From IMG/VR virus record IMGVR_UViG_3300020445_001256, positions 23,448-87,447 of that record: DNA of 64,000 nt; one strand, 5' to 3'. Source of the stretch: a virus. Below, piece after piece: positions 3,257 to 47,260 of the stretch. Numbering within the stretch: position 1 is the first letter of the stretch; each line of letters begins with the position of its first letter. The notes below the pieces were generated by a model. The model saw only the letters and a program-made list of their open reading frames with translations, was not told where the DNA came from and made no database searches. The position numbers and the translations under genes are program-made.

Positions 3257-3261
3257 TAGGA

Positions 3262-6944: not shown

Positions 6945-6964
6945 CCAATTACTAAATTCTATAA

Positions 6965-7000: not shown

Positions 7001-7022
7001 GTATTTGAATAATATCATTATT

Positions 7023-8060: not shown

Positions 8061-8064
8061 AGAA

Positions 8065-8169: not shown

Positions 8170-8194
8170 ACTTATAAACTTGCATTATTATTAC

Positions 8195-22615: not shown

Positions 22616-25600
22616 ATGACAAGTATCAATAAGGTTTCACAGGCAGTCAATAGACAGACTCCCGAATTTGTAGAGCAGGATTATCCTCTCTTTAATAAGT
22701 TTCTTGAGTATTATTATCAATCTCAGGAAAAAACAGGTCTAGGACAGAATATTCTTAATAACTTCCTTGGTTATTTGGATATTGATAAACTAGACATTAG
22801 CATTCTGGATGGTGCAACGAAGGTAGTAGAATCAATAAGTGCGACAGACGATATAATAATTGTAGAGAGTGTTGATCAATTTCTTGAGAACGATGGTTCT
22901 GTTCTCATAGGTGATGAAGTAATTTACTATGAAAAAGCACAAGCTGGACCCAATATTGCTCTAAGTCCAGGTGTTTCTTATGATCAGGTTAAATTAAAGT
23001 GGATTAACCTTGCAAGTCCATTAATGAGTTTTGATGGGTCTAGACAATCTTTCCCATTAACATCTCAAGATAATCCTATTGCTCCACCTTCTGTGCAGCA
23101 TTTGATTGTTAGTAATTACGGTAAGGTTTTAATTCCTGGTACAGACTATAGTGTCGAAGGAACAAATATAATATTCACTACTGCTCCTAGAACTAGAATA
23201 CCTGCTGATGATGCGTCATCAACTTATATTACTTACTTAAACGGTTTTAATGAGAATACGATTGTTGCTTTAGACAATCTTTCTGGTAGTTTTGGTGAAA
23301 GTAAGAGACAATTTACTATTACTAGATCTGGTGCAAGATATGAACCTATTGCTGATGAATATGTTCTTGCAATTTATGATAATCGTCTATTAACTCCAAA
23401 AGTAGACTTTTTCATCGATGGTGATCAATTTATCTTCTTAACAGCACCATTAAACGGTAGATTCCTTTCATTATTCTCTATTGAAGCACCTATTCCTTCT
23501 TTTGGTGCTGGTGCTGTAGGTTATGCACGTATTAGTGATACTGGAACTCTAACTGGTATTTCTATTAGTAAAAATGGTACTGGATATAAGTCTGAGTATC
23601 CTCCAAAGATTTCTATTAATACTGAGAATGGTAGCGGTGCTTCTGCTTCTGCTTTAGTTAATGGTCTTAAGAGTATTGCACTATTAGAAGGTGGTCAGGG
23701 ATATAGTAGCACTAATCCACCTGTAGTTCAAGTTCAAGCACCTACTGCTGTAGGAGCAACTGCAGCAACTGTTTCTGCGACTGTTACTAATGGTGCTGTC
23801 AGTGCTCTTACAATCACTAATTCTGGTTCTGGATATACATTCACACCTAGAATCACTTTCAGGCAACCAGGAGGTGCTGTACTAGGCACTCCAACCGTTG
23901 TTAATGGACAGATTACTGCAGTAAGTATTACTAGTTCTGGTTTTGGATATACAACTGTTCCAACAGTCTATATTGATGAACCAACTGGTACAAATCCAAT
24001 TAAAGCAGCGTTCCAAGCAGTTTTAAGTAGTGATGGTGAAATTACATCCATTAACATTTTAAATGCTGGTCAAGGGTATACATCTACTCCTAGAATGGCA
24101 GTTATTGACCCAGTAGGTGCTCAAGTTCTTGAAACTACTGTTGATAATCAAGGTAGAGTAACAAATATTGAACTTTTAAGTGGTGGTGTAGGTTATAGTG
24201 ATGTTCCTTCTGTTTATATCGTAGATAACAGAACTGATGCTACTGGTGCATATGCTGGTGGAACTGGTGCTATAGCAACTGCATCAATCTTCAATGGTCA
24301 GATTACAGATATTAATATTAGTGCTTTTGGTGGAGGATACAGTCAATCTGCTCCTCCCGTGGTTGTTATTCAAGCACCTCCTGCTGCTGAAGCATCTGCG
24401 GAGATTGGTTTAAATGAAGTTACTGGTTTTACAGTAAATCAAGCTGGTAGCGGATATCAGAAGGCACAATTGACTGGATGTGCTCGTGCTGCGTCTTCTA
24501 TTACTTCTTATACGGAAAGTGGTAACGCAATATTTACAAATAATACTATTGCATCTGCACATGCGGTAGATGAACCAATTAAGTGCTTAGATGCGTTATT
24601 TGTTAAGAGATTACTTGACAAGTACACAGAACAGTATTTACCAGATGTTCCTACATTAGATTACTCTAAAATTGATGTTAGAACAGCAATTAAGACAATT
24701 AAGGACTTTTATAGTTCTAAAGGAACATCATATAGTATTGGATATCTCTTTAAACTACTTTATGGTGAGACAGTTAGTATATCTTATCCTAAAGATCAGA
24801 TAATCAAACCATCTGCTGCAACATGGTCTATTGACACTATTTTGCGTGCTACTTTAGTTAGTGGTGATCCTACAGATATTCAAGACGGTCTTTTAACCCA
24901 AGAAGCGGATATTGCTGACCTTAATGTTAAAGAAGCAAGTGCTCTTGTAGAAAATTATATTTCAATTAGAACATCACAAGTTACCATATATGAATTAGTT
25001 CTTTCCGAAGAAACTATTGCGGGAACCTTTATTGTTCCTTATAAGACAAAATTAGCAGAACCGCTTAATAAAACTGAATCTATTATTACTGTTGACTCTA
25101 CAATTGGTTGGCCTGAAAGAAACGGTGAATTTATTATTGGTAGTTCAACTGATACTAGAGAAATTGTTCAATATAAGGAAAAATCATTAAACCAGTTCAT
25201 TGAGTGTACTAGATCAGTAAATGGTGTAGTTGAGGACTGGGATTCTGCTACAGAGGTAAAATCTAACTTTAATGTTTACATTAATAAGGGAACTCCTCAA
25301 GAAGTGGTGATGAATATTGTTGGTATCGTTGATGCTCAACAAACAACTCTTACTGATACTGGATCTTACTACTTACCTGGTGATAAATTAACAGTTTCTA
25401 AGTTAGGTGGAACAGGAACTACTCCTGAACTTACAACTTGGTTGTATAACGTTAAAAAATTAATCGAAGTTACTTCTGTAGCATTTGGTGGTATTAATAA
25501 CCAATCCGCGACTATTACTTGTAAGAATGATCACGGTCTTTTGGTAGGAGATCAGGTAACCATCTATGGTGCTAACCCAATCCTTTATAATGGAACATTT

Positions 25601-28600
25601 CTTGTAACATCTAGAGATAGTGATACTGTTTTCCAATATGCATTACCTCAACCTGCTACTGTTATCCCACAGGGTAATATTCTGGTATCTATTGACCTTA
25701 ACAAAGGTAAATCTACTAGTACTGCAATAAACAATGCTATTAGTCCTTATACGACTAACGTTCAGAACTCATTCTTTAACGACAATTACGTTTATCTTGC
25801 TTCTACTGGTATTCCAAACTATAATATTGGACCTTTCCCAGGATCAGCACTTCTTCCTGGTAACCAAAGAAAATTAACAAGATTCCCTAAAATACCTACT
25901 ACAATTTCTACAAAGGACTTAATTGGTGCTGGTCCAATTGGAACTTGGGTAAATGGTGTTTCTGTATGGTCTTATAAGTCAAGTTTAACTAAGACATTTG
26001 GTGCTATAACAAGTATTGGCATTACAAATGCTGGTTCAGGTTATGATGCTGCTTCTCCTCCTGCTATTACAATTTCTGGTGGTGGAGGTTCTGGTGCTAC
26101 TGCTTCCGTAGTTGTTGACGGTGCTATCAGTGAAGTTACTGTAACTACTGGTGGATCTGATTATACATCCTCACCATTGGTCTCTATAGTCGGTGGAGGA
26201 GGGTCTGGAGCTGCTGCAACCGCTATTATTACTAAAGGTGTTGTTTCACGTATTCTAATCAATTCTGGTGGAACTGGATATACTTCACAACCTCAAATTA
26301 CTATTGTAGGTGGAGGTGGTTCTGGTGCTGCTGCTACCGCATCTGTTAGAGGTCCGATTAAAACTATTAACGTTGCTTCTGGTGGTTCCGCATACACATC
26401 TAAACCTAGTGTTACTTTAAGTTCTGGTTCTGGTGCTGTTGCACAAGCAATTGTACAGAATGGACGTATTATATCAATTGCTATTATATCTGCTGGATCT
26501 GGATATACTACTGCTCCTGAAATTACTATTCAAGGTGATGGTTTTGGTGCAGTTGCTAGAGCAACTATTGACGTTGATGGAGAAAATGCTGGTAGAGTTA
26601 CTAATATTGAGATTATTAACCGAGGTATTGGATATCTTCAAGGAACTACTATTATTAATCTAGATTCAGTTGGATCTTCTGCATTATTCAGTGCAAATGT
26701 ATTTGAGTGGACTTATAACTTACAATCAACCGCAACTTTAGACTCTGCAAAGGGTGGTGTATTTGAAGGATATAATAATCAGTATGGTGGTGAATATGCC
26801 CACCTTTCTAACCCACAAACACTAAGATATATCTTAGGTGATAACCTTTATGAGTCAAACACTGGTACAATCCTAGAAAAAGAGGATTCTGTTGTTCACT
26901 CACCTATTATTGGTTGGGCATTTGATGGTAACCCAATTTATGGTCCTTATGGATATTCTGATCCAACTGACCAAGGTTCTGTAATAACTAGATTGAGTAC
27001 TTCATACAGGGTTAAACCTGCTCTTATATATGATGCTGCAACTAATCCATACCCAGTTAGAACTGATGGACCTTTACTTACGGATACAGATAGTAATGGA
27101 ACTCTATTGTATCCATATGGTTCTTTCGTTGAAGACTACGAATATGTTTTTGGACTAGGGGATCTAGACCAATATAATGGTCGTTTTTGTAAAACACCTG
27201 ATTATCCAACTGGTAGATATTGCTATTTTGTTACTATTGACAATACTACTGCTGGTAATCCTGAATTCCCATATGTTTTAGGACCAAGTTTCAACTCTGT
27301 TGTAGATAAGTGGAATTTAAGCACTTCTGCTGTTCAGCAGAACATTCCTACTGGTGTTGTCCGTTATAGAGACCCATATGAGAATGTTGACATTGATGTA
27401 TCAAGAGCACCTAATGTTTCTACAAATGCTCTTACAACTGAATCTGGAGATATAATCTTATTTGAAGTAGAAGATGAAGATAGAAGTGGTGTAATAGATC
27501 AGATAGAAACTGATGATCCAGATCAAATGTTTGAAGAATCACCTTTACAGTTATTTGATTACTTCCCTAAAGTAACATTTGACTCTAAAGTTGATATTGA
27601 AGTAGAAACTATCACTAAATTTGAAGATGCTTCTGTAAATGGATTTACTATTGAAAACCCAGGTATTAACTATCAGGTTAATGACCGTTTAGAATTTGAT
27701 AATACTGGTACTGATGGTACTGGTGTTTCTGCTCGTGTTTCTAGAATTAAGGGTGAAGCAGTTGAAAGTTATAGTTTTGAAAACATTAGTGGAGAGAATT
27801 TTGGTGTTTTAAAGACTACAGAACCTCATAACCTAGTAATTGGTGATAGTGTCTTTGTGACATATAATCCAATAATGAATAATACGAACAAGACCTTTAC
27901 TGTTCGTCAATTCAAAGGTATTGAAGAAATTGTTATTAATCAGACTGGTTCTGGTTATAATTCTGATATTCCTCCAACAATTACTATTGATAGTGCTACT
28001 GGAAGTGGTGGAGAATTACAAGCAGTTGTAACTTCTGTTGGAGCAATCGAGACTGTTAATATTATTAATTCAGGTTCTGGATACACAACTAATCCTCGTG
28101 TTATTCTTTCACATCCACAGGTGTTTAAGAAAGCAGATTACTATGTTTCTAAGATTGATAATAACAACTATGTTAAAGTAAATGACGTTGTTATTAATGA
28201 AAATAAAGAAATCTTTATTTGTGGTAAAACAAAGGATACTAATGGTAACGAAATTGGTTTTGTTTCTAAATTATCTGCAACTGGTGTTAAAGAATGGGAG
28301 AAAAATTTAGAACTTACTGGTGGTGGACAATATTGTGAATTCCAAAAACTTTATGTTGATGGAAATGATGTTTGGGTTGTTGGTAACAATAGACCAAATA
28401 GTAATCTTTTAGATTCATATAACCCAGATATTATTCTAGCCAAGTACACTCAAGCATCAAATGGTCTTAGTGCAACACTAGGATTCCAGAAAGGATATGC
28501 TGGTATTTCTGGTTCTACTCGTTCTGATAGTGTAACTGCAATTACTAAACTTTCTGATACTAGATTTGTTATAGGTGGTTATACAAATACAAACTCAACT

Positions 28601-31600
28601 AATCCTTTTGATGCATATATTGCTCTTATTGATACAACAGGTAATTTTGCACTTAAGAGAAAGGTTGCAGGTACTACTACTTCAGAAAAAATTACTGGAT
28701 TAGTTGTTAATGCTGGTAATGTTTATTTCTCTGTAGAGAGTGCTGCAAGTCCTAATGCTACTGCTATTGATCTTGGATTAGGTAAAGCAACAATTGGTAC
28801 TAGTGCAATTACTATTGATTATGTTAAAACATATTCAAATACTTCATATTCATTCTTAGATTCTAGTATTTGTATTGATGAATTTAATGAAATTTATTTA
28901 ACTGCAACTTGCAGACTTAAGGCAAATAATACAACAAAGAATAGTTTCTGGGTTGGTAAAACAGATATTGATGGTAATCTTATTTGGAACTATAGGTATC
29001 AGATACCTAATGAAAGTGGCACAGAATATGCAATTCAAGCAGTAAGTAAGACTGCAATTGATGTTTTTGGTGATCTTAACGTTGGTGTTACTTTAACAAG
29101 TGGAATTAACGGTCTTAAGACTGCAAGATCCTTTAAGATTGGTTATAGTGGTAATCTTAAGGAACATTCATCTAATCTCTTCAATCTTAATAATGTTGAA
29201 GGTGTTACTATTAATTCGTTAGATGTTGATAATTCTGGTGATGTTCATCTATATGGTCAATCTTCTTGGAATAGAAATGAATTCTTATTACCATTCACAG
29301 GTGGAGCAACAACAGATACAACTGGTCATTATACTCCAACTATAGTAACTACAGGAGGTTCATTAAGTTATGAAAATACTGTCCAAGGTGGATATGCAAA
29401 AATACTCGGATCTCAACTTGCAAGTCCAACTGTCTGGGAAAATGCTTACATTAAGTTCCCAGCTGCGGATCTTGGGACTAAACTTGCTGACGATTGGACT
29501 ATAGAATTCTTCCTTTATAGGGATAGTTCAAATAGTAATGTATTCAGTCAAAATGAAGAAACTCTAATTTCTATTGGTGATGCAACAGTCACAACTGGTG
29601 GTCTTTGGTTATACTTTGAAATTAGTACTGGTAAGATTGGATTAGCAGTTACTAATAATACTACTGCTTTAAATGCTGGAAGTGCTCAACTTAGCACAGC
29701 AACCACAATATATGCTACTAATACTTGGCAAACTATTGGATTAAAGAAAGAAGGAAATATATTTACTGTTTATAGTAATGGTATTCAAGTAATTCAATCT
29801 ACAGTTCCTGATACTTCATTAGGTAGTAAAGATTTAGTTATTGGTAATATTTCTGGTAGAAGTGGAACTCTTAATAACTGGCGTTCAAATGAACAGGGTC
29901 AATACCATGTTGATAACTTACGTTTGAGAAACAGAGCAGTTACACCAACTGTTCCTAGTGATATTGGTGTTTTACCTCTTGCTGGAGCATTTTCAATTGG
30001 ATATAATTGGGAAGATGATGCTTGGTTTACTACTAACTTAAACAAGTTTGATTATATTGATTACACTGGTATTGGTATTAAAGTTGATAAGAATGCTGAT
30101 GCTGCAAGAGTTGGTACTTATACAGAAAGAACTAATACTAAGTTAGGATTTATTAGAGCAGATGAAATAGGAACTACTATTACTCCTACATCACTTACTG
30201 TTGTAACAACAGGATTTGCATTAGCTGATGCTGGATTCCAAGGTTTAGACTTTGATGATGCCACTATAACAATGGCTCAAGATACTGAGACTATGACCTA
30301 TACTCAGGACGTATGGAGTTCTAGAACTGCTACTGTTCCTTCACCAGGTTCTCAGAAGTTATCTGTATCTGCTGTAGTTAAAGACAAATACTATTTCAAA
30401 GTAACTAATACTATAAAAATTGATAATGTTCAAGAACTTACTCTAAATCAGGCGTTTAATTTTACTACAGGAACAAAATTAAGACTTAATAATAATGCAG
30501 GAACCTTTGTTAATAGTGGATACATTATCAGACAGGATACTACTAATAATAAAATATATCTTGCAATTAATAATAATGCTTGGTCTAATGATCTAAACAC
30601 AGGTAACTTAGTTACAGAACAGTTTAGTGAGCAAAGCACTTATGGTATTGTTGGACCTATTCCTGCTGATGTTAATGAAATTGTAGGATATACATTTGCT
30701 CAGGTTAACAATACAACTCCTGGAACATTTGATATTGATCTTGATGATTATAATTTAAGTGGTACTGGTTATAATGCAGGTGGTGGACAAGACCTTGATA
30801 GTTATGCTAAGTTTAAACCTTATTCTGATAATGATTATTCAGTAAGAATTGATGAAGTTACTACTGGATCACCATATATCGTTGGTTCTGTTATTAATAT
30901 TACCGATAGTAATATTTCATATAATGCTGCTTATTCTACTGCACAAATTACTGGTTTAACTGCAGTTACCAAAATTACATTAGTTGCAAATCTAACTAAG
31001 ATTCTTCAAGTTAGTGCAGTATCTAATAGTGATGAAGTTTATGTAATTACTGGAACAAGTCATTACCTTTCTGCAGGTGAGATGATTTATGTTGATGGTA
31101 ACCCAACAGAGAACAGTCTTGACGAGTATGATGGTGCATTTGCTGTTAATTCTGTTGTAAGTCCATTAGAATTTACATATAAACTAAAACAGGTAGCAAC
31201 TACTTCTCCTGCTACATCAGCAGGTAGCGTTAACATATTTGTTAAATCTCCTGTATTGAAGATGTATTATGGTCACCAGTACATCTTTGACATGAGTCAT
31301 AGTTCATTACTTGGTGGTAACTTATCATTCTCTAAAGATAACCTATACAAACTTGAATATTCATTCAACTCAATTGAAAGAACTGGAACTCCTGGTGTAA
31401 GTGGAGAAGGTGTTCCTACACCTATAGTTAAGTTAAAAGTTGATGATAATATTTTAACTAACATATCATACTACTTTGATCCTTCAAGAATTGGAGCAGA
31501 TTCTCCAATTAATCCTTCTAGTTACCTAGATGTTACTAATTCTCCATATAAGGGAACATTCTCAATTAGTTCTGTTGCTGGTGCAACAATTACTCGTGGT

Positions 31601-37600: not shown

Positions 37601-40600
37601 GCTATTGAAAAAGCAAATGATGTAATTAAGATTGTTGATGAGTCATTAACATTTACTTGTGCTATGGATAATAATGGCACTAACCATTTGTATCCACGTT
37701 CAACTGACCCAATTAGCGGTAGATGGTTAATTATTGAGAATGTTGCATCAACTACTTTCGATGTTCAAGTTTTAGATAACGCTCCTTCTACTAACACATC
37801 TGCTCACACATTTGTTACTGCTACAACTGGTGCTATTCAAGCTAAGAGAGACCCTGCTCAAGGAACTGCACTTCCAATTACTGCTGTAGGTGCAACAACT
37901 ATTACTGTTAACGTTACCCCTGTTACTTCATATAGTTCAACAACTCATACATTCCAGTCTGCATCTCAAGGTGCTGTTAAGGTTGGTGGTGATTACACTC
38001 ATAAATTTGTAGATGCTGCCTCTGGTGCTATTATTCCTAATCACGGATTCTATACTGGTGATAGAATTATGTTTGAGGAAGGATCATTAGTCTTTACTTG
38101 TGGTATGGATAGTGATGCTACTAGACATGCATATCCAAGAGAAAGTGATCCATTCTATAATAAATGGTTGCCAATTAGTAGTGTAACTACAAATACTTTT
38201 AATGTTAATGTTGGAACAACTACTAATACACAATTTACACCTACTGGAGGAACCTACGATGGAACCACAGGTAAATTAGGTATTACTATTGGTGCTCACA
38301 CACTTGAAGTTGGTCAACATATTAAGATTGCTACTGGTGGAATTTCATTCACTTGTGCAATGGATGGTGGTACTGCTGTTAAGGCATATCCTCGTGCAAC
38401 TGATCCAGCAGACGGTGTTACTCTTCCAATTCTTGAAAGAACTGATACTACTATTACTGTTGATGTTGGTCAATCACCTTATGTTTACTTTGATGTTTCT
38501 GCTGCTACCTACAACCCAACATCGGGTGTCATGGTACTTACAATTGGAGATCATGGATTAACTGCTAATACAAGTATTAGACTTAAAGATAATTCATTAA
38601 CCTTTAGTTGTGATAATGGTGGTGTTGGAACTGGAACTTATCCTAGATCAAGTAATGACTACGTTTATCAGAAAGCAATTAATATTGATTCTGTAACTGA
38701 TACTACAATCACAATTAATGTTAATGGTGGTCAAGGTGCTATTACTAACACCAATGCTCATACATTTGTAAGTGCTTTACCTGGAGCAGTTATTGCTGGT
38801 GGTGCTTGGGCTCATACTTATTCAACTGCTGCATCAAATGCAATTTCAGTTGGTGGTAACTATACTCATAACTTTAAATCTGCAACTCCTGGTGGCATAG
38901 TAAGAGCTGGTGAGACTATTAGAATTGCTAAAGATGGTATTTCATTCAAGTGTTCACAAGATGGATATCAAACAATTCATTCATATCCTAGAACAGATGA
39001 TCCTGGATATAACACTTCTCTACCAATCTATAATGATGGAACATCTTATACTGCATCTAATGCAGCATATAATGCATCGACTGGAGAGATGGTTATCACT
39101 ATTAATTCACATGGATTTACAACCAGTGATCAAATTAGAATCGAAAATAATTCACTAACATTTACTTGTGTTAAGGATAGTAATACATCTATCCATAGTT
39201 ATCCTAGAGATAACGATCCTTATGTTCGTAGATGGTTGAGAGTTAGTGCTGTTACTGAAAATACATTCACTGTAAATGTAGGTAAGGCATCATCCTCAAC
39301 ACAACAGTACGCACACACATTTGCTAGTGCTGCTAAGAATGGTATTACCAAACGTGATAATACTGTTACAGTTAACGTTGGTGCTACTCCAACTAAGAGT
39401 TTCACACCGACTGCATCAACTTATAATCCTTCAACTGGTGCTTTAGCATTAACTATTGGATCACATAGTCTACCAGCTCCAACCACACATACACCAACTG
39501 ATGTTGCATATAATCCAACAACAGGTATTATGACTCTTACTATTAATGGTCATAACTTCTCTAATGGTGAAAAGGTTAAGATTGCTGATGGTGGATTGAA
39601 ATTAAGTTGTGCATTTGGTGGTGCTTCAGGTGGTGCTGCACAGAAAGATTACCCACGTTCAACTGACCCAATTAGCGGTAAGTGGATTCCTATTTCTGGT
39701 GTAACTACAAATACATTTGATGTTCAAGTTCTAGATGTAATTCCTTCTACAAATACTGACACTCATTCATTCGTATCTGCTGTTACTGGATGTGTAAGTA
39801 AAGCAAATTCAACAGTTAAGATTGCTGAGAATTCACTAGTTTATAAGTGTGCTGAAGATAGTAATGCTACTGAACATGCTTATCCAAGAAGCAACGTTGC
39901 TACTCATACAGCAGGACCAGGAACAAATTATAATCCTGTTACAGGTGTTCTAAAACTTAGTGTTCCTACAGAAAGTCATACACCTTCCACAGCAACATAT
40001 AACCCAACAACGGGTGATATGGTTCTAACTCTAGATTCAACTTCTGGAACATTTAATGTTTCTAATGCAACTTATAACACCTCTACAGGTGATATGGTAC
40101 TTACTATTGGATCTCATAGTTTAACCACATCAAATAGAATTAAACTTAAAGAAGGATCTTTGAAGTTTGCATGTAACTTTGCTAATGATAATTATCAGAC
40201 TGCAAAAGCATATCCAAGAGCTTCAGGTGCTAATACTACTAATGGTGCTGACTATGCATATAATACATTCTTACCAATTACCGCAGCTGATGCTACAACT
40301 ATTACTGTCAATGTTAATGGTGGTCAAGGTGCTATCAGTAACAATAATCAGCATAACTTCTTAACTGCTGATGCTGGTGCAGTTATTGTTGGTCATGGAC
40401 TAGAAGTTGGTGATAGAATTAAGATTGCTGATGAATCATTAACCTTTAGTTGTGATAATGGTGGTGTTGGAAATGGTTCATATCCTAGATCATCTAATGA
40501 CTATGTTTATCGTAAGTGGATTAGAATTAGAGCAGTAACTGGAACTACTATTACTGTTAATGTTAACGGTGGACAAGGTGCTATTACCAATACTAATGCT

Positions 40601-43600
40601 CATACATTTGTATCTGCTACTGCTAATTGTATAACCTCTGGTCATGGAATGACTAATGGGTCTCCAATTAAGATTGCTGATAGTTCACTATCATTCAGTT
40701 GCACTGAAGGTAGTGGTGGTACATATGCATACCCAAGAGCAACTGACCCAGTTTCTAAGAGATGGTTATTCATCAATAATGTAACTGATTCATCATTCGA
40801 TGTTAATGTTCTAGATACAATTCCTTCAACCAATGTAACTACACATACATGGATTAGTGCTGTTGCTAATGGTATTATTGAAGGTGATCCTATTGTCGGA
40901 CAAGCAGTTCCTGTTGAATCTGTAACTTCTACAACTATTACAATTAATCCTCTTGATGGTGATGTTCCAACTAATACATCTGCTCATACATTTGAGAAGT
41001 TAAACACATATCAATTCCAACCATCTGCTATTACTTACACTCCATCGACAGGTGTAATGTCAGTAACTTCAACAGCTCATAAGATTGAAGAAAATGATAA
41101 GATCTTTATTAAGGATAATTCACTTTCATTCAAGTGTAATATGGGTGATGATGCTGGTATTCATACTTATCCTCGTGAGTCAGATCCAGTTTCTAATAAG
41201 TGGATCACTGCTACCAATGTAACTGCAAATACATTTGATGTTAATGTTGGTGCTACACCTAATATCTTCTTCACTCCTTCCGATGCGACATATAATCCAA
41301 CAACAGGTATTATGTCACTTACGATTGGTAATCACGATCTAAGACCTGGTAGTAGTGTTAAGTTAAGTCAAGAATCATTAACATTTAAGTGTGCTCATGA
41401 TTCATATGCAACTAACCATTCATATCCAAGAAATACAATATTAACTCACACACCAACTGATGCTGATTATCATCCTGATACAGGTATCATGACATTGACT
41501 GTCAATAATCATAAGATGGGTGATGGTGATTGGGTCAAGATTGCTGATGGTGCTGTAACATTCAAATGCACATATGGTGCTGGTGTTCATACATGGACTG
41601 GTGGTACTGCAACTGGTGCTGTTCAAGTTCAAGAAGCAGGTTTAGGAAACTTTGATGTTACTGGTGCTGACTATAATGCCTTAACAGGTGATATGGTATT
41701 GACAGTTGGATCTCATTCAATTACAACTGGTAACACAGTTAAGATTGTTGCTAACTCATTAACATTCAGTTGTGATCTTGATGCTAACGCAACGAACCAC
41801 ACATATCCTCGTGCAACTGACCCTGCATATGATACTGCTCTTGCAATATCTGCTGTAAGTGGTACAACAATTACAGTTAACGTTGGTGTAAGTTCACCTG
41901 GAACTGCATATCCTCGTGCTTCTGATCCTGTTAGTGGTAAGTGGATTAAGGTATCTAATACAACTACAAATACATTTGATGTTCAACTTTTAGACATCGT
42001 TCCTTCAACAAACACAAGTATTCATACATTTGTTTCTGCTGTTACTAATGGAATTAGTCAGAAGAAAGATAGTGCTTATGATTCTCCAATTGAGATTGTT
42101 GATACTACTGCTACAACTATTGATCTTAAAGTTGTTAAGAAATTACCTTCAACAAACACAACCAATCATATATTTGTATCTGCTGCATCTAATGCGGTCA
42201 TATCTGGTGGTTCATATACACACACCTTTGTTACAGCAGACCCAGATGCTATTACTAGATCTATAGTACATACTGGTGGTAATTATAATCATGTATTTAC
42301 ATCATCCTTGACTGATGGTGTAATAACTGGTGGTAACTATGTTCACACCTTTGTATCTGCTGAAACTAACGGTATTAAATGTGCTGGTGATTCAGTTTAT
42401 CTAACTCCTGGATCACTTACATTTAAGTGTGCTCAGGATAATTATGATAGACCTACTGCATATCCTAGAACCACAGATCCTTCTTACAATCAACTATTAG
42501 AAATTAAAGAGGTAACTGGTGATACATTTACTATTGATGTTGGTGCTGCTGCAGATAAGAATCAATATGCTCATACATGGGTAAGTTCTGCACAGGGTGC
42601 TGTTAAGAAGTCTGATTACAATCTTAGAGATTGCACAGATGTATTCACTACAGTTGGTAACTTAGTTGACATACTTACAGATACACTAACAAATGCTAAT
42701 GCAACTCCTGTTGTTGATCATCTAGCAAGTGTTACTAAGGTTACACCACCTTATAAGTTCTACGGTGCAACTGTTGATGCATTTAATGAGACTCCATTCC
42801 CAGTATCATATCATAGTTCTGCTAACGATATTATCGTTACAAATCAAATTGATGAAGATACTCAATATAGATTCCGTGATGCTGCATACTTAGTTCGTGC
42901 AAATGCTGGTGTTATCGTTGATAAGGCATCATATGATATGCTTCAACGTTATCCAGATCTTGCTATTAGTATGCCAAGAAATGCTAATGGAACATCTACA
43001 GATGGTACTGTTCGTTGTAAGCAAGATTTACTTGAGATCGTTACTGCAATTGCTACTGATCTTGAAAATGGTGGTAACTTACAGACACTAAAAGCTGCTA
43101 AGTTCTATATCGGTGTTAACGGTGGATTACAGCATATTCGTTTACAAGTATTCCAATCTGCATACGCACATACTCGCCTTGGAGTTTATCTTAAGCAAGC
43201 AATTACAGGTGATTTAACATACGATAATACTGATAATATTATTGTTCGTGACTGGGGTATTACTGATAATAGTAGTTCTGGTAACTGTGCTAATGTTCAA
43301 ACTGCTATTGACACATTAATTACATCAGTTAATGATTTAATCGCACCTACAGATAGTGATTACGCACTTGCTGCAGATAGACTTTACTTCAATAAGGACT
43401 TCATTGCTGAAGAAATTACTGGTCTTACAACCGCATACTTCACTTATGATTTGAATGGTGTTAATTATTCAGCACTTACATATCCTGGATCTACTGGAGA
43501 AACCACATGTCGTAGAGACCTTAAGTTAATCTTAGATGGTATTATATCTGATTTACAAACTGGTGGTAATGAAAGTACTATTATTGCAATGGAGACATAT

Positions 43601-46600
43601 TTGAGTGCTACATTACAAATTGAGCAAGTTGATGATGAATTAGCAGCAACTATCTACGCTATTGATAGACTAAGACATATCGGTGAATTTGCTATTAAGG
43701 ATAAAGTATTCTCACAAAATGAAGGATCAGGTGCTGCTGATGAATATGAAGCAGTTCATACTAACAGAGCAGAATATAGAGATGGATTAAGTGCAACTAA
43801 TAATATCCTCAATCCTGTTTATCATTACCGTGATCTTTGCGATATCGCAATTAATATTCTCGCTCCTGGTGGTAAGGCAGCAAGAAGTGCTGTTAAGCAA
43901 CTTAAGTACAACCAAAATTACTATAAGGAAGAATTAACTACTCTTGTTAATTCACAGTTTGGTGCTGGATCTTGGACTTATAATACATTCATTGATGAAA
44001 TGGTTGGTAATACTGTCCATGACATCATTACAACTGACTTTAATAAGACAAGAATTGCTTACACTATACAATTATCTAATACATTCAATGAATATGTTGC
44101 TGGAGAAACTATTGTTTCTAGTAACAATGGTAAAGCAACTGTTCTAGAGTGGAATAGTGATGAAGAGATATTATATGTTTCTTCATGGACTGGTAATAAG
44201 TTTGAACCAACTCAGATATTAATTGGTGCAGATTCTAATGCATACGGAACTGTTGCTGCTAATGGAGTTAGTGCTCCATATACTTGGTATACAGAACCTG
44301 CTAATCTTAAAGCTATTAATTCTGCAAGATTAATTACTTCTAATATTGCTGGTCAAATTGCTGGAACTAATATAGCATCTAACTCAGAAAACTTTACAAC
44401 TGGATGGACAAATACAGGTACGTCTGTATCTGCAGATCAACTTGATTCACCAGATAGCACAGCTACTGCAGATAAGATAATTGCTACTGCTGTTGCAGGT
44501 GAACACTTTATTCATCAAAACTTCTCTATTAGTGCTTTTGAAACATTTGATAGTGATGCAGTTAAGTTTGATAACACTAATGAAACATTTGACACTGGTG
44601 CTGTTGGAACTGCTCAATCTCAGCAGTATACATTCTCAGTCTTCTTGAAGAAGGGTGAATTTAATAGAGTTCGTGTTCAAATGGGTCTTGATACTGGAGC
44701 TGCTGGTGAACAGTTAGCATTCTTCGATCTTAACCTTACAGATGGAACATTTGGTGGAATATTCACTCCTGGTAATGGTATTACGATTGATGCTTTTGGA
44801 ACTATTCCTTATGGTAATGGTTGGTATAGAGCATACATTACAGGTACATTCTCCTTCGGATTTGGTGAAATTAGACCACTAATTTATGTTAGAGATGCTG
44901 CAGGTAATGCTCAGTATACTGGTGACGGTAGTTCTGGAGTATATGTTTGGGGTATGAAACTCTTTAAGGGTATTCTTGATCCTTATCAATCTGCTGCTGG
45001 TCAGGTATTCTATGCTGATACAGAGTATAACATTAAGACTTACGCATTAGATCTATTACAAGATTATATGATTAAGGCACTTACAGGATCTCTAATATCA
45101 CCTTCCACAAACTCAGGATTCTATTCATACTTTGATAATACACTTGATACTGATTATAAGTATCGCTCAATTGAAAGATTAGTTAGATATAACTTAAATA
45201 TTATTCGCGAACAATTAACAGTTGATAGTTACTATACAACTCTTACTACAACGAATGGAGTTTCTATTCCTACTAAGACTTATGGAACTAGAAGTATTCC
45301 CGCAGGTATTACTGGTGGACTACAAAATTCAATTTATGTTTATGGACTTCAAAGTGATGCTAATGCTGAAATTGAAGAAATTAGTGAGAACTCAGGTAAG
45401 GTTGTTCAAGTTTACCAGAGATTTAGAATTGATGGTGATATAACTGACGGTCCATTCACTATGAATGAAGTAGTTGCTAAACTCGGTAATAATTCTATTA
45501 CTGGTGTTGTTTATGGATACCATTTTGATGAGAACTACAAGTACCTAGATGTTAAAGTTACTGCTGGTCCTTGGGCAGTTACAGACCAAGTTGTTGGTGC
45601 TACTAACTCAACTACTGCACAGATCAGTGCTATAGAAGATAGACTTCATATCATTGATGTTAAGGGACAATTTGAGAATGATATCCCATTCAAGGGTTAT
45701 GCAAGTTCTGCTACAGCATCACCTACTGGTTACATTAAGGCAGAAGCTTCTATAACAGATAACACTGGTGGAACATTAACCGTTGATACTGAATCATTAA
45801 CAGGAACATTTGAAGCAACATCTGTTGTTTACCCATCATCTTCGAGACAATATATAGACGTATCTAAATACGCTGGTCTTGATATAACGGTTGGTGATAG
45901 AATTGCTTCGGGTGGATATAAGAGATTTGGTATTTCTGTTCTAAGTGGACTTAATAGTTTCACTCAAGGTAATAGACTTTATAAGGTTGTTTCTGGTATT
46001 CAAGATCCTCTCACATACGGTATTATCACTGAAGTTGATCTTGATAATAGTTACATCTATGTCGCAGAATACCAAGGAACATTTACGCAGGGTGATGTTA
46101 TAGGTGACTATGGCACAAATGCTTCGTTCCCGATTGGTTACGCAACAATTCTAACGATTGTTACTACTCAAGGTGCTGCTGCAGGACTCGTACAGGATAT
46201 TCGTGATATTGCTCTGAATAAGAGAATATATCTCACAGACGTAGCAGGAACATTTGACGATAAAGATTTCATTATCGGTCCTGACGCTTACAGGTCTGTA
46301 GTTCTTGGAATCACTGAAATTAAGGCACGTGTTAAGCGTTCCTTCAAGGGATTTGATGGAACTACAACTACGTTCCCACTAACAATTAATACAGGAACAT
46401 CTTACTTACCTGATCCTGCAGGTCATATGTTAATATTCCTTAATGGTATATTACAACCTCCAGGCGCAACTAACGCATATACAGCGTTCTCCAACCAGAT
46501 TCAGTTTACTGAAGCACCAGAACTAGGTGCATCCTTCACAGGATTCTACGTTGGTAAATTGAGACAGTTGGATGATATATCCTTCGAGTTTGACTCCTTA

Positions 46601-47260
46601 CGTCAGTCATTCAACCTCAAGCGTAATGAAGTGTTCTACTCATTGACTCTAACTGAAGGTGTTCAGTCCAGTACAATTCTTCCAGAAAATAATATCATTT
46701 GTTCTCTTAATGGTGTTATTCAGGAACCAGGCGTAGGTTTCGAGATCGTTGGTTCTAGAATCATCTTCTCTGAGATTCCTCGTGTAGGATCAACATTCGT
46801 AGCATTCTCCTACGTTGGTTCTGAGGCAGACGTTGATGCTGCTGAAGTTGTTCCACCTATCGAACCTGGTGACTTTATTGACATCCAAGGTGAGACTTCA
46901 GACAGAGAAGTTGCTGTTATTGAATCTTCAAACTCTCTAATCACTTATGATTACTTGGGTTCTGTATTCGGTAAAGACGCACAAGGTCAAGCAAATATTA
47001 CTTCAGGAACTATTGATACTGTTCAGGTTACATCAGGTGGATCTGGTTATACAACTAGACCAACTGTCAGACTTGATTCTATATCTGGTTTTGATGGTAA
47101 CGTTAAGGCACTAGTCGGTGTTGCTGGTGTTGAGATTAATAATACTGGTTCAGGATATCAAACTCCTAACGTTGCAGTTGAAACTGTAGTGGATGATAAT
47201 TGGACTGCACCTGATCTTTCACTATACGGTGAAGAAGAGGTAGACCCCGAAACCCCATAA
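22616..47260 (+). CDS. giant baseplate/tail adhesion protein, 8,214 aa
   Basis: One uninterrupted frame of 24,645 bp follows gp6, the place of the T4 gene 7 equivalent. Approximate order by residue: 1-720 baseplate-like N-terminus, with 'SGYT...P.V.I' glycine-rich repeats (312-622) and a helical unit VDVRTAIKTIKDFYSSKGTS-like around 685-719. Then more Gly repeats (1132-1345), a YHYH domain (1422-1562; GWAFDGNPIYGPYGY) and a beta-propeller-like region (1840-2220). LamG-like domains lie at 2250-2440 and 4072-4265. 'NGI-Q-PG' modules are at 3600-3650 and 7905-8080. A long YPR repeat block spans 4445-6669. Helical 'CRRDL...ISDLQTGGN' modules and a carbohydrate-binding-like domain (7252-7459) precede the end. 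It is likely a virion protein for wedge structure and host adhesion. It has no signal peptide. The exact T4 counterpart is not provable here. Confidence 0.9.
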   Translation: MTSINKVSQAVNRQTPEFVEQDYPLFNKFLEYYYQSQEKTGLGQNILNNFLGYLDIDKLDISILDGATKVVESISATDDIIIVESVDQFLENDGSVLIGDEVIYYEKAQAGPNIALSPGVSYDQVKLKWINLASPLMSFDGSRQSFPLTSQDNPIAPPSVQHLIVSNYGKVLIPGTDYSVEGTNIIFTTAPRTRIPADDASSTYITYLNGFNENTIVALDNLSGSFGESKRQFTITRSGARYEPIADEYVLAIYDNRLLTPKVDFFIDGDQFIFLTAPLNGRFLSLFSIEAPIPSFGAGAVGYARISDTGTLTGISISKNGTGYKSEYPPKISINTENGSGASASALVNGLKSIALLEGGQGYSSTNPPVVQVQAPTAVGATAATVSATVTNGAVSALTITNSGSGYTFTPRITFRQPGGAVLGTPTVVNGQITAVSITSSGFGYTTVPTVYIDEPTGTNPIKAAFQAVLSSDGEITSINILNAGQGYTSTPRMAVIDPVGAQVLETTVDNQGRVTNIELLSGGVGYSDVPSVYIVDNRTDATGAYAGGTGAIATASIFNGQITDINISAFGGGYSQSAPPVVVIQAPPAAEASAEIGLNEVTGFTVNQAGSGYQKAQLTGCARAASSITSYTESGNAIFTNNTIASAHAVDEPIKCLDALFVKRLLDKYTEQYLPDVPTLDYSKIDVRTAIKTIKDFYSSKGTSYSIGYLFKLLYGETVSISYPKDQIIKPSAATWSIDTILRATLVSGDPTDIQDGLLTQEADIADLNVKEASALVENYISIRTSQVTIYELVLSEETIAGTFIVPYKTKLAEPLNKTESIITVDSTIGWPERNGEFIIGSSTDTREIVQYKEKSLNQFIECTRSVNGVVEDWDSATEVKSNFNVYINKGTPQEVVMNIVGIVDAQQTTLTDTGSYYLPGDKLTVSKLGGTGTTPELTTWLYNVKKLIEVTSVAFGGINNQSATITCKNDHGLLVGDQVTIYGANPILYNGTFLVTSRDSDTVFQYALPQPATVIPQGNILVSIDLNKGKSTSTAINNAISPYTTNVQNSFFNDNYVYLASTGIPNYNIGPFPGSALLPGNQRKLTRFPKIPTTISTKDLIGAGPIGTWVNGVSVWSYKSSLTKTFGAITSIGITNAGSGYDAASPPAITISGGGGSGATASVVVDGAISEVTVTTGGSDYTSSPLVSIVGGGGSGAAATAIITKGVVSRILINSGGTGYTSQPQITIVGGGGSGAAATASVRGPIKTINVASGGSAYTSKPSVTLSSGSGAVAQAIVQNGRIISIAIISAGSGYTTAPEITIQGDGFGAVARATIDVDGENAGRVTNIEIINRGIGYLQGTTIINLDSVGSSALFSANVFEWTYNLQSTATLDSAKGGVFEGYNNQYGGEYAHLSNPQTLRYILGDNLYESNTGTILEKEDSVVHSPIIGWAFDGNPIYGPYGYSDPTDQGSVITRLSTSYRVKPALIYDAATNPYPVRTDGPLLTDTDSNGTLLYPYGSFVEDYEYVFGLGDLDQYNGRFCKTPDYPTGRYCYFVTIDNTTAGNPEFPYVLGPSFNSVVDKWNLSTSAVQQNIPTGVVRYRDPYENVDIDVSRAPNVSTNALTTESGDIILFEVEDEDRSGVIDQIETDDPDQMFEESPLQLFDYFPKVTFDSKVDIEVETITKFEDASVNGFTIENPGINYQVNDRLEFDNTGTDGTGVSARVSRIKGEAVESYSFENISGENFGVLKTTEPHNLVIGDSVFVTYNPIMNNTNKTFTVRQFKGIEEIVINQTGSGYNSDIPPTITIDSATGSGGELQAVVTSVGAIETVNIINSGSGYTTNPRVILSHPQVFKKADYYVSKIDNNNYVKVNDVVINENKEIFICGKTKDTNGNEIGFVSKLSATGVKEWEKNLELTGGGQYCEFQKLYVDGNDVWVVGNNRPNSNLLDSYNPDIILAKYTQASNGLSATLGFQKGYAGISGSTRSDSVTAITKLSDTRFVIGGYTNTNSTNPFDAYIALIDTTGNFALKRKVAGTTTSEKITGLVVNAGNVYFSVESAASPNATAIDLGLGKATIGTSAITIDYVKTYSNTSYSFLDSSICIDEFNEIYLTATCRLKANNTTKNSFWVGKTDIDGNLIWNYRYQIPNESGTEYAIQAVSKTAIDVFGDLNVGVTLTSGINGLKTARSFKIGYSGNLKEHSSNLFNLNNVEGVTINSLDVDNSGDVHLYGQSSWNRNEFLLPFTGGATTDTTGHYTPTIVTTGGSLSYENTVQGGYAKILGSQLASPTVWENAYIKFPAADLGTKLADDWTIEFFLYRDSSNSNVFSQNEETLISIGDATVTTGGLWLYFEISTGKIGLAVTNNTTALNAGSAQLSTATTIYATNTWQTIGLKKEGNIFTVYSNGIQVIQSTVPDTSLGSKDLVIGNISGRSGTLNNWRSNEQGQYHVDNLRLRNRAVTPTVPSDIGVLPLAGAFSIGYNWEDDAWFTTNLNKFDYIDYTGIGIKVDKNADAARVGTYTERTNTKLGFIRADEIGTTITPTSLTVVTTGFALADAGFQGLDFDDATITMAQDTETMTYTQDVWSSRTATVPSPGSQKLSVSAVVKDKYYFKVTNTIKIDNVQELTLNQAFNFTTGTKLRLNNNAGTFVNSGYIIRQDTTNNKIYLAINNNAWSNDLNTGNLVTEQFSEQSTYGIVGPIPADVNEIVGYTFAQVNNTTPGTFDIDLDDYNLSGTGYNAGGGQDLDSYAKFKPYSDNDYSVRIDEVTTGSPYIVGSVINITDSNISYNAAYSTAQITGLTAVTKITLVANLTKILQVSAVSNSDEVYVITGTSHYLSAGEMIYVDGNPTENSLDEYDGAFAVNSVVSPLEFTYKLKQVATTSPATSAGSVNIFVKSPVLKMYYGHQYIFDMSHSSLLGGNLSFSKDNLYKLEYSFNSIERTGTPGVSGEGVPTPIVKLKVDDNILTNISYYFDPSRIGADSPINPSSYLDVTNSPYKGTFSISSVAGATITRGADTFKFPLLDEPEGDAEVSQTTYSTSSVKAVGSISDVRIVNSGGFYTRLPIVSSITSTRQIERVAIEDPGTEYANGVYNAVPIAGNGEGGLVEITVADGLDSEGVTIPGQIQAVTVTSPGKNYTTASIDIEAIPGILGAGLTGSGAKLTVVIPNAGTQASIFTKADKVGKIKKLKNNNFGYDYPHDYTLRPEISFPINAQLTSTSILSSITVTNPGSGYSQAPAVVITGGGGSGATAESSIKNGRLDIIIVKDPGAGYSSTPTVSLKSSFNYVVNLDLGLLQFAFPHGITNGAAVTLNVVDTGDGADFPLAAGAVGRLNGTTTYYAISGAANSLENDQLKLALTAANAELGDALSFVNAGEGRQQVLTESFGGSATANVITSTFLEGELVYQGDSLDTATATGYVSTNQGWQIGPRILKIVDYTGTFAETQKVTGVISKSSGTISDLNIARGVLEIGSITKTTGQFIDDVGKPSEIIQKIQDSYYYQDFSYAIKSAVSISEWKEILIKNVHPASFKVFGELNLSDYGFIPNKDTDFQLTKSVELAREAIVPNIQSFALVEPIYSEFNNTEVLFRQKRLTSSENILTSVVQRIDDISGQFDGEKIAFPLTVDGNTVVANANQLMIVLNGIVQNPGTAFEIQGDSIVFSEPPQPPASVKYVNIKISQIAIVSNTFTNQSGIFPSPGNVLTGTNSGAKLTVTSVVGDTIFGFITEGTFIAAENVTVSATGFSANLDVQSNVSNIGLFQYGEQVKNLTNDTAKVEQINLQRGLENALAQLRYTVGPSTTSIEVVPDGSTTDGPVPAGTFTTSTSYQLGSEVVTVTNIVDGNDSTTLTVSRGQNGTVAVSHQEDFPIYGTVIAVTDELTLSKTAGTYKSTPGLFDIQLNDVIIGAKSGVVARVTQTSAYQDPTTQEFISQVNISEGSSFFGLLMNRISSTSYPNIVLDDISKSQVSVVQYTDNTTAFNSQFPANEQLNNIVVPYDNLVGGPIQENETIRNYKLKYGGNTGEFIAGEGARARKLSYINPKGDGFFAKGQVLRTQDTKAEVLGFNQADQVIYLGKVGRTKANGQDYHIPSFSNSAQLDTTVKYYGTASLQLAAATNDYVTIPSSSEFAFGTGAFTIDLMLRPAASSISGTATILDMRASAANEVAGRLYLQAGQVRWNVNNADIVTSGATALTADTWVYVSIMKSGTTTKILLNGVEAGTATDNTTYVAKPIRLGSDYAGANSLTGFIDELRVSNTNRHQTIPFTPQNGIWQGDANTKLLLHFDGADAQTWTEDWSGAEGFTAGEDFNNDAIIASTRSSNATPGGFTGNTQRYYDAADLILLNKEFLAQEVVYILKERHPHHTVKGSEVDCEDDVRDVLDAIISDLRNGTNNKIWDASSYYVDRTSSPIVLKFVSNEVDEVVYTYDKLEEMLKYIVNNTLWDVQGDHGLVQKTDSTITEASGLTTQTFQPTAAAYDAESGYMVLTASGHGMRAERGITATGASYTATTGVLQLTVATTTFSVSTATYDHTTGVMVITIGSHSLTTNDNIRIATGGITFSCNNGGVSTGAYPRANGANTESGADYAYDRWLPILAVGATTITVNVNGGKGAISHAFAHTYSTSSAGCITAGHGLNEGDRIKFDPNSLVMNCTSDGNTVNQSYPRPDDPAAQGWLEVIENTSTTFDVNVGKSPTVNYTASAGTYDADTGFLTMNIGQHNLRTSRKYTATNADYTASSGAMKITIGDNIDVHDASYVAKNGLLKLNIGHHNFKQGSLVKIAPNSLFFTCSMDDHQSVHAYPRSSDPVYNDDIEVIDITDDTITVDVGTSPEVSYTPTGATYNTSTGDMVLTIGAHSLAAGTSIRLLDESIAFSCSFGSGGTSSYPRPTVDTKNVQTASYNPQSGILSVTTTAAHNLTGPTAKNVTDATYNASTGILQLESAGHGFSLGDKIRIKDDALVFTCTKDGNATNHTYPRSTDPVSGQWLTIVAKATDTIDLQVGASKIGLNEFAHTWAGGTASNAIEKANDVIKIVDESLTFTCAMDNNGTNHLYPRSTDPISGRWLIIENVASTTFDVQVLDNAPSTNTSAHTFVTATTGAIQAKRDPAQGTALPITAVGATTITVNVTPVTSYSSTTHTFQSASQGAVKVGGDYTHKFVDAASGAIIPNHGFYTGDRIMFEEGSLVFTCGMDSDATRHAYPRESDPFYNKWLPISSVTTNTFNVNVGTTTNTQFTPTGGTYDGTTGKLGITIGAHTLEVGQHIKIATGGISFTCAMDGGTAVKAYPRATDPADGVTLPILERTDTTITVDVGQSPYVYFDVSAATYNPTSGVMVLTIGDHGLTANTSIRLKDNSLTFSCDNGGVGTGTYPRSSNDYVYQKAINIDSVTDTTITINVNGGQGAITNTNAHTFVSALPGAVIAGGAWAHTYSTAASNAISVGGNYTHNFKSATPGGIVRAGETIRIAKDGISFKCSQDGYQTIHSYPRTDDPGYNTSLPIYNDGTSYTASNAAYNASTGEMVITINSHGFTTSDQIRIENNSLTFTCVKDSNTSIHSYPRDNDPYVRRWLRVSAVTENTFTVNVGKASSSTQQYAHTFASAAKNGITKRDNTVTVNVGATPTKSFTPTASTYNPSTGALALTIGSHSLPAPTTHTPTDVAYNPTTGIMTLTINGHNFSNGEKVKIADGGLKLSCAFGGASGGAAQKDYPRSTDPISGKWIPISGVTTNTFDVQVLDVIPSTNTDTHSFVSAVTGCVSKANSTVKIAENSLVYKCAEDSNATEHAYPRSNVATHTAGPGTNYNPVTGVLKLSVPTESHTPSTATYNPTTGDMVLTLDSTSGTFNVSNATYNTSTGDMVLTIGSHSLTTSNRIKLKEGSLKFACNFANDNYQTAKAYPRASGANTTNGADYAYNTFLPITAADATTITVNVNGGQGAISNNNQHNFLTADAGAVIVGHGLEVGDRIKIADESLTFSCDNGGVGNGSYPRSSNDYVYRKWIRIRAVTGTTITVNVNGGQGAITNTNAHTFVSATANCITSGHGMTNGSPIKIADSSLSFSCTEGSGGTYAYPRATDPVSKRWLFINNVTDSSFDVNVLDTIPSTNVTTHTWISAVANGIIEGDPIVGQAVPVESVTSTTITINPLDGDVPTNTSAHTFEKLNTYQFQPSAITYTPSTGVMSVTSTAHKIEENDKIFIKDNSLSFKCNMGDDAGIHTYPRESDPVSNKWITATNVTANTFDVNVGATPNIFFTPSDATYNPTTGIMSLTIGNHDLRPGSSVKLSQESLTFKCAHDSYATNHSYPRNTILTHTPTDADYHPDTGIMTLTVNNHKMGDGDWVKIADGAVTFKCTYGAGVHTWTGGTATGAVQVQEAGLGNFDVTGADYNALTGDMVLTVGSHSITTGNTVKIVANSLTFSCDLDANATNHTYPRATDPAYDTALAISAVSGTTITVNVGVSSPGTAYPRASDPVSGKWIKVSNTTTNTFDVQLLDIVPSTNTSIHTFVSAVTNGISQKKDSAYDSPIEIVDTTATTIDLKVVKKLPSTNTTNHIFVSAASNAVISGGSYTHTFVTADPDAITRSIVHTGGNYNHVFTSSLTDGVITGGNYVHTFVSAETNGIKCAGDSVYLTPGSLTFKCAQDNYDRPTAYPRTTDPSYNQLLEIKEVTGDTFTIDVGAAADKNQYAHTWVSSAQGAVKKSDYNLRDCTDVFTTVGNLVDILTDTLTNANATPVVDHLASVTKVTPPYKFYGATVDAFNETPFPVSYHSSANDIIVTNQIDEDTQYRFRDAAYLVRANAGVIVDKASYDMLQRYPDLAISMPRNANGTSTDGTVRCKQDLLEIVTAIATDLENGGNLQTLKAAKFYIGVNGGLQHIRLQVFQSAYAHTRLGVYLKQAITGDLTYDNTDNIIVRDWGITDNSSSGNCANVQTAIDTLITSVNDLIAPTDSDYALAADRLYFNKDFIAEEITGLTTAYFTYDLNGVNYSALTYPGSTGETTCRRDLKLILDGIISDLQTGGNESTIIAMETYLSATLQIEQVDDELAATIYAIDRLRHIGEFAIKDKVFSQNEGSGAADEYEAVHTNRAEYRDGLSATNNILNPVYHYRDLCDIAINILAPGGKAARSAVKQLKYNQNYYKEELTTLVNSQFGAGSWTYNTFIDEMVGNTVHDIITTDFNKTRIAYTIQLSNTFNEYVAGETIVSSNNGKATVLEWNSDEEILYVSSWTGNKFEPTQILIGADSNAYGTVAANGVSAPYTWYTEPANLKAINSARLITSNIAGQIAGTNIASNSENFTTGWTNTGTSVSADQLDSPDSTATADKIIATAVAGEHFIHQNFSISAFETFDSDAVKFDNTNETFDTGAVGTAQSQQYTFSVFLKKGEFNRVRVQMGLDTGAAGEQLAFFDLNLTDGTFGGIFTPGNGITIDAFGTIPYGNGWYRAYITGTFSFGFGEIRPLIYVRDAAGNAQYTGDGSSGVYVWGMKLFKGILDPYQSAAGQVFYADTEYNIKTYALDLLQDYMIKALTGSLISPSTNSGFYSYFDNTLDTDYKYRSIERLVRYNLNIIREQLTVDSYYTTLTTTNGVSIPTKTYGTRSIPAGITGGLQNSIYVYGLQSDANAEIEEISENSGKVVQVYQRFRIDGDITDGPFTMNEVVAKLGNNSITGVVYGYHFDENYKYLDVKVTAGPWAVTDQVVGATNSTTAQISAIEDRLHIIDVKGQFENDIPFKGYASSATASPTGYIKAEASITDNTGGTLTVDTESLTGTFEATSVVYPSSSRQYIDVSKYAGLDITVGDRIASGGYKRFGISVLSGLNSFTQGNRLYKVVSGIQDPLTYGIITEVDLDNSYIYVAEYQGTFTQGDVIGDYGTNASFPIGYATILTIVTTQGAAAGLVQDIRDIALNKRIYLTDVAGTFDDKDFIIGPDAYRSVVLGITEIKARVKRSFKGFDGTTTTFPLTINTGTSYLPDPAGHMLIFLNGILQPPGATNAYTAFSNQIQFTEAPELGASFTGFYVGKLRQLDDISFEFDSLRQSFNLKRNEVFYSLTLTEGVQSSTILPENNIICSLNGVIQEPGVGFEIVGSRIIFSEIPRVGSTFVAFSYVGSEADVDAAEVVPPIEPGDFIDIQGETSDREVAVIESSNSLITYDYLGSVFGKDAQGQANITSGTIDTVQVTSGGSGYTTRPTVRLDSISGFDGNVKALVGVAGVEINNTGSGYQTPNVAVETVVDDNWTAPDLSLYGEEEVDPETP
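35940..42620 (+). repeat. intragenic tandem repeat block (YPR repeats) in the giant gene
   Basis: About 2,230 residues consist of degenerate units. Each typically has ATYNPTTGDMVLTIG-SHSL, then 'IKIADNSLTFSC', a 'YPR..DP..GKWLPI' turn, 'V..TTITVNVG' and 'AHTFVSA'. YPR occurs 21 times. Some units are partial, joined at the same breakpoints. Two copies (about 38,600-38,780 and 40,440-40,620) share SSNDYVY and NGGQGAITNTNAHTFVSA; another pair (36,270 and 40,230) shares GADYAY. This indicates growth by internal duplication. Confidence 0.9.

Follow-up and report, generated by a model that had tools for sequence, protein, structure and literature searches.

Gp7 of bacteriophage T4, a protein of 1,032 aa, is present in six copies in the baseplate wedge and initiates wedge assembly. 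Cyanophage records hold relatives of the gene described here with annotated lengths of 4,107 aa in DSL-LC03, 4,454 aa in P-HM2, 5,195 aa in P-SSM2 (as gp7), 6,180 aa in S-SM1, 6,395 aa in S-RIM8, 6,603 aa in P-RSM4, 6,817 aa in ACG-2014d, 7,041 aa in S-E7, 7,351 aa in P-TIM40 and 8,573 aa in P-RSM6, and the P-SSM4 record with its 7,312-aa gp7 was reportedly published in 2005. The S-SM1 orthologue is listed in its record as T4-GC969, a cluster that was detected by mass spectrometry in purified S-SM1 virions (PMC3037559). According to a 2020 paper, cyano- and pelagimyophages lack T4 gp7 and seem to have VrlC in its stead (PMC7029224). In the S-PM2d coexistence experiment, mutations were reported both in structural genes and in those of very large proteins (3,048-3,779 aa) whose function is unknown (PMC9910659). 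The gp7 of Anabaena phage A-1(L), a neck protein, is unrelated (PMC10966104). Among the matches listed, open-licence papers on giant phage genes give no account of the size of this family.

Here we describe a member of the family from an environmental virus record. What our report adds is the assignment of a candidate gp7 core, the dependence of gene length on one repeat array and a link between this array and tail-fibre genes, none of which is described in open-licence papers among the matches listed.

The reading frame and its integrity

The window is the whole stretch of DNA that was analysed, 64,000 nucleotides of an 87,447-base virus record (IMGVR_UViG_3300020445_001256, positions 23,448 to 87,447) that is likely a genome fragment. 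An earlier note on this DNA had described one frame of 24,645 bp and 8,214 residues right after gp6, and we confirm this description, as a single open frame with an ATG start begins 12 nt beyond the end of gp6 (Table 1). The frame was also said to fill over a third of the window and to be far longer than T4 gene 7 at the comparable position, and the figures bear this out (38.5% of the window; 8,214 versus 1,032 aa). The product has a calculated mass of 876 kDa and a calculated pI of 4.7. The chance of such a frame is about 10^-272 under a simple mononucleotide model with this base composition, codon-position GC follows one pattern throughout the gene, the remaining two frames contain stops in every tile, and the proteins of relatives start at the same point. 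PHROG 701 matches along the gene in two pieces, scoring 7,566 bits over residues 3-4333 of the first and 3,652 bits in the second, and the gene sits between gp6 and a gp9-type connector as it does in PHROG 701 relatives.

Table 1. Features of the giant gene and its baseplate neighbours, with window coordinates
Feature	Position	Strand	Basis
gp25-type baseplate wedge protein	20184..20603	+	phrog_261; synteny with S-SM1 gp25
gp6 baseplate wedge	20603..22603	+	PF21379, phrog_219
Giant gp7-like baseplate protein gene, 8,214 aa, PHROG 701 family	22616..47260	+	
N-terminal helices, residues 1-64, presumed part of gp7 core; low pLDDT; alone not significantly T4 gp7-like	22616..22807	+	
Insertion, residues ~126-615, not in P-HM2-type gp7; eight GxGY repeats and adaptor-like domain	22991..24460	+	
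Beta domain, residues 214-294, like phage tail-fibre/tailspike N-terminal domains	23255..23497	+	CBA120 TSP4, Z 8.7
Putative gp7 core, residues 691-830: DFYSSKG helix and beta domain; matches T4-type gp7 730-840	24686..25105	+	
YHYH-family domain, residues 1365-1544, signature altered to RYCYF	26708..27247	+	Pfam
LamG/ConA-like domain 1, residues 2276-2443, slightly over Pfam cut-off	29441..29944	+	
LamG/ConA-like domain 2, residues 4093-4236	34892..35323	+	Pfam
YPR repeat array, residues 4498-6661: 21 motifs, 26 HMM hits, 16 nearly full-length units	36107..42598	+	
Conserved C-terminal region, residues 7701-8214	45716..47257	+	
gp9/gp10-type wedge-fibre connector	47286..48512	+	PF07880, phrog_677
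gp8-type wedge protein	53497..55029	+	phrog_438; synteny with S-SM1 gp8

A frame of this kind could be the product of chimeric joining or of wrongly expanded repeats. The earlier note had raised this worry; the record is environmental, repeats are a known hazard, and one relative (G010, L236/L237) has the gene split into one frame of 4,754 aa and another of 3,209 aa, owing either to a genuine frameshift or to an error in the sequence. When viral contigs were scanned with residues 1-800, 379 stretches were confirmed, and the best 80 of these 379 were kept. A search for both ends of the gene was made in 30 of the 80 kept records together with the window's own record, and both ends were present in 22 of these 31; in the remaining nine the frame runs off the contig end. 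With the single exception of G010, the two-ended records (21 of 22) join the ends in an uninterrupted frame, whose length lies between 6,180 and 9,131 aa, and the same design occurs in cultured isolates. An 8,217-aa copy on a separate 130-kb contig is colinear with the window protein in each tile of 200 aa, with identities of 78-98%. Comparison of these two copies gave dN/dS values of 0.048-0.364 in 21 of 21 tiles of 400 codons each, and thus the whole frame is under purifying selection. Inside the gene there are no exact repeats of at least 40 nt, the best internal nucleotide pair has 81% identity over 189 nt, and a search for tandem arrays found none. Because an independent colinear copy exists, 21 of 22 records preserve the frame, dN/dS is low in every tile and long exact repeats are lacking, we consider misassembly very unlikely, to the point of being scarcely credible. 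A 9.6-kb contig (L005) codes for residues 1-800 with 100% identity to the window.

Both ends of the protein were also searched against phage records, as had been proposed. Residues 1-800 are matched in 475 of 50,697 records and the last 514 residues in 313, with at least 80% of the query covered in 290 records in either case. The gene is an ordinary member of a known family that is already present in the P-SSM4 record. It is large, in keeping with the suggestion that it may be one of the larger phage genes, and has no singular rank, since the P-RSM6 protein and three of the 21 intact copies, all environmental (8,217, 8,384 and 9,131 aa), are longer; the gene is thus neither unique nor the largest. 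The longest copy that we met, of 9,131 aa (G007, L088/L089), carries 29 YPR motifs.

A 1,646-aa neighbour (48518-53458) matches both YHYH and PHROG 701 and therefore has modules in common with the giant gene, and a 2,404-aa DUF4815 protein (55033-62247) occupies the position of the S-SM1 VrlC protein. One stretch of the window holds four genes that match PF13759, a 2OG-Fe(II) oxygenase domain (300-953, 2612-3256, 17079-17675 and 19248-19874, the first of them under the Pfam cut-off), and two genes code for N6/N4-type DNA methylases (PF01555; 3668-4516 and 7091-8059). Promoter and terminator scans near the end of the giant gene gave results near shuffle level, and Rfam and tRNA searches found nothing.

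A candidate gp7 core near the N-terminus

Both ends of the protein had been described in the earlier note as baseplate-like, a description that stands for the N-terminal end and gains no support for the C-terminal one. A profile of residues 612-830 with their relatives aligned to T4-type gp7 at hhalign 93.4% and an E value of 2.4e-7, the alignments behind such gp7-core profiles being shallow, and the same T4 profile set against the C-terminal region as a control gave hhalign 0.2%. The best solved relative of a profile covering residues 1-830 was likewise T4-type gp7, at a weak E value of 0.014, with residues 691-721 falling on gp7 730-760. In the core stretch phrog_26741 is matched by both T4 gp7 and the giant protein, and Pfam gave a short baseplate-wedge match in the latter. 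An AlphaFold2 model of residues 1-830 (mean pLDDT 67) retrieved with Foldseek the gp7-holding entries 9f4a, 5hx2 and 5iv5 as ranks 1-3 of 350,542 chains, with E values of 1e-4, 0.04 and 0.05, respectively; of these chains 5hx2_A is named gp7 and those of 9f4a and 5iv5 were judged to be gp7 by entry and length, and the global Foldseek scores of the model are poor (TM ~0.08). Residues 732-830 superpose on gp7 760-840 over 77-80 residues with VIA Z scores of 7.4-8.3 and an rmsd of 2.8-2.9, and the runner-up fold matches in this region are translation-factor barrels at 6.4. The sequence match and the fold match to gp7 are adjacent and in the same order. Profiles and predicted fold thus support the assignment of residues ~691-830 as the gp7 core.

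The core appears to be interrupted. In distant, P-HM2-type relatives hardly any sequence separates an N-terminal segment of ~110 residues from the part that corresponds to residues ~620-830, and for this reason we interpret ~490 residues of the window protein as an insertion; in the underlying alignment of N-termini the distant members were entered as two rows each. The helical part preceding the insertion is less gp7-like. Helices are predicted at residues 17-53, the helical part of the core is modelled at low confidence (pLDDT 30-44), the first 125 residues alone reach hhalign 0.6% against T4 gp7, and P-HM2-type N-termini used as the query align with T4 gp7 at 69.6% over only 29 columns. The Pfam families Gp7_helical, Gp7_5th and Gp7_6th reach the cut-off in T4 gp7 and do not reach it in the giant protein, and phrog_964, the PHROG of T4 gp7, has no match to the giant protein. 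Given this weak helical half and the lack of Pfam gp7 and phrog_964 matches, the protein is filed as a gp7 core with foreign additions and, as far as these comparisons go, it is not a T4-type gp7 over its whole length. The C-terminal region is conserved; no solved relative of it was found and no relation to T4 gp7, and its candidacy as a second gp7-like end was rejected on these grounds.

A different reading is that gp7 is missing from this phage and a VrlC-like protein is present instead, with the giant protein being merely a fibre or adhesin. Much of the giant protein is indeed adhesin-like, and the absence of gp7 from cyano- and pelagimyophages is in print (PMC7029224). However, a gp7 core is found by profile and by predicted fold at the gp7 position, and the DUF4815 protein at the VrlC position matches no gp7 family at E 0.001. 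We regard the loss of gp7 as decidedly improbable, and our profiles and models do not support the statement of its absence for this gene. The gp7 core would accordingly lie within a protein that is labelled hypothetical or structural in records and is passed over by the paper that makes this statement, and the records read assign proteins with this core to the separately numbered cyanophage clusters T4-GC 969, 643, 397, 507, 1204 and 107.

Added domains and the YPR repeat array

Beyond the core, the earlier note had listed YHYH, LamG-like, repeat, propeller-like and carbohydrate-binding-like sections. Pfam and HMM searches recovered the YHYH section, two LamG-like domains and the repeats; the propeller-like and carbohydrate-binding-like stretches have no convincing Pfam match and therefore stay unconfirmed. 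The YHYH match (PF14240) has an E value of 1.1e-27 and a score of 97.8 bits against a cut-off of 25, and leaves the first 47 profile positions uncovered. YHYH domains have been proposed to be tail-associated metal-dependent hydrolases that use three histidines and an aspartate (PMC7824862). The matched stretch of the window protein contains only His1396 and His1428, and the last residue of the motif is phenylalanine in 26 of 30 proteins, these being the ones in which the pattern located the motif. Within the insertion, the beta domain has CBA120 TSP4 as its best match with an rmsd of 3.2 over 70 residues. Regional dN/dS, calculated from two close copies, is 0.13-0.14 in residues 1-1850, 2480-4080 and 7450-8214, 0.24 over the entire array, and highest, at 0.33 each, in 1850-2480 and 7250-7450. 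Such a pattern would be expected with contact between the host and some of the outer modules.

The YPR array was delineated with a repeat HMM, after self-BLASTP of the whole protein gave no rows, and its unit is ~85-100 aa long. Residues 1-4200 and 6690-8214 are colinear in 14 of 14 relatives compared; the array differs. Among 24 members protein length follows 6,162 + 98.5 x YPR count (r 0.991), and among 22 close members it follows 6,055 + 103.9 x YPR count (r 0.997), the fitted members having between 1 and 29 motifs. The correlation is 0.989 over 17 members without near copies and 0.983 over 25 with P-RSM6 included. These fits leave out the cut copies G018 and P-TIM40 as well as P-HM2, DSL-LC03, S-SSM7a and S-SSM7b, which are not colinear, and take the motif counts of G016 and G029 from clipped copies; P-TIM40, with 7,351 aa annotated and 6 YPR motifs in 7,332 aa, would exceed the fitted length by ~600 aa. 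Most of the variation in length between the fitted members is explained by the number of YPR copies. Much of the size of these giant genes is thereby traced to one repeat array.

For 127 nearly full units from 11 non-redundant proteins, the best match lies in the array of another phage in 121 cases, elsewhere in the same array in 6 and in the adjacent unit in none. The array therefore looks old and not freshly duplicated, with the proviso that the larger pool of other arrays favours such a result. A two-unit YPR model is confident (mean pLDDT 87.9). Its fold matches in the PDB are all below Z 6, with endosialidase stretches (Z 5.8-5.9) and E1-enzyme domains at the top, and Foldseek gave no PDB match at E 0.001; a likeness to the endosialidase barrel or to E1 enzymes, at Z 5-6 and tied with others, is a mere hint. 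A PDB profile match of the YPR pair to iota-carbonic anhydrase (E 0.0009) was set aside, as it covers only 41 residues and this fold is not among the best 50 fold matches listed in either search. The best named matches among viral models belong to baseplate, structural and fibre proteins of cyanophages. Of the phage records searched, 314 contain the repeat (by organism name, Synechococcus 235, Cyanophage 49, Prochlorococcus 22 and Marine virus 8), and annotated cyanophage tail-fibre genes are among the genes that carry it.

Such an array might passively space or stiffen the baseplate and have no part in binding. The variation in copy number would be compatible with this, no ligand site was identified and the fold matches are weak, but the recurrence of the repeat in tail-fibre genes speaks for more than spacing, and we find a purely passive array doubtful.

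Proposed role and comparison with known systems

We think it probable that the giant gene is the cyanophage counterpart of T4 gp7, forming a wedge anchor that carries a host-contacting arm of beta domains. The position of the gene after gp6 and before genes of the gp9/10 and gp8 types supports the anchor. The first ~830 residues would contain the gp7 core that pairs with gp6 in the wedge, interrupted by the inserted block with its GxGY repeats and its adaptor-like domain, the latter lying near the anchor. By analogy with T4, the core may dock on gp6 in the same way and the protein may be present in six copies per virion. After the core, the chain would exit the baseplate as an arm composed mostly of beta domains, including YHYH, LamG and the YPR array, with the lectin-like and YPR modules further out contacting the host surface. 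We base the reading of this part as an arm on the YPR repeats in tail-fibre genes, the LamG domains and the highest regional dN/dS of 0.33. The arm might bind surface glycans or carry fibres.

One could also suppose that the gene yields a polyprotein, that is, one chain whose cleavage would leave the gp7 part and the array part to act separately. S-SSM7 encodes in separate genes what corresponds to residues 1 to ~3600 and what corresponds to the array with the C-terminus, so that the array half can stand as a protein of its own; on the other hand, 21 of 22 records retain a single frame, and we hold a cut chain to be rather improbable. A more speculative extension of the preferred anchor-and-arm reading, which we offer tentatively, is that the arm is adhesive, gp7-anchored and adjustable in length. 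Lineages would gain or lose YPR units common to tail-fibre genes and thereby change its reach or the number of its binding modules, and the arm would stand in for part of the tail-pin and short-fibre apparatus of T4. If the arm does bind hosts, the number of repeats would be a simple character to compare with host range among viruses that are abundant in the ocean.

T4 gp7 likewise follows gp6 and has the core motif and the following beta domain in common with the giant protein. However, ~640 residues precede the core in T4 gp7, whereas in the giant protein the core is at the start, has an interruption of ~490 residues and is followed by ~7,400 more. S-SM1 (SSM1_102) and P-RSM4 (PRSM4_106) have the same gene order as the window, and their proteins are colinear with the window protein over residues 1-4200 and 6690-8214, identity being ~70-90% for the majority of tiles within 1-2000 and 2600-3600 and lower elsewhere; they carry 2 and 6 YPR motifs, respectively, versus 21 in the window. 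The P-SSM4 gp7, annotated as baseplate wedge initiator, is an orthologue with 73% identity at both ends that has 11 YPR motifs and is ~900 aa shorter. The P-RSM6 protein (CPXG_00128) also lies beside gp6 and is similar in size, with 19 YPR motifs of which 18 are within the array region and one is at residue ~733, but it is more distant, at mostly 24-64% identity with several tiles unmatched around 2001-2300 and 7001-7500. S-SSM7 (L105, 3765-22859) differs in having two genes, both annotated gp7, of 3,007 and 3,001 aa with a 340-aa structural gene in between and without the ~490-aa core insertion; the former corresponds to portions of residues 1 to ~3600, the latter to the array together with the C-terminus, and between them they span much of both halves of the giant protein. 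Finally, PHM1_097 of P-HM1 (3,676 aa) has the YPR module in common with the giant gene and is a different gene, annotated as a tail fibre.
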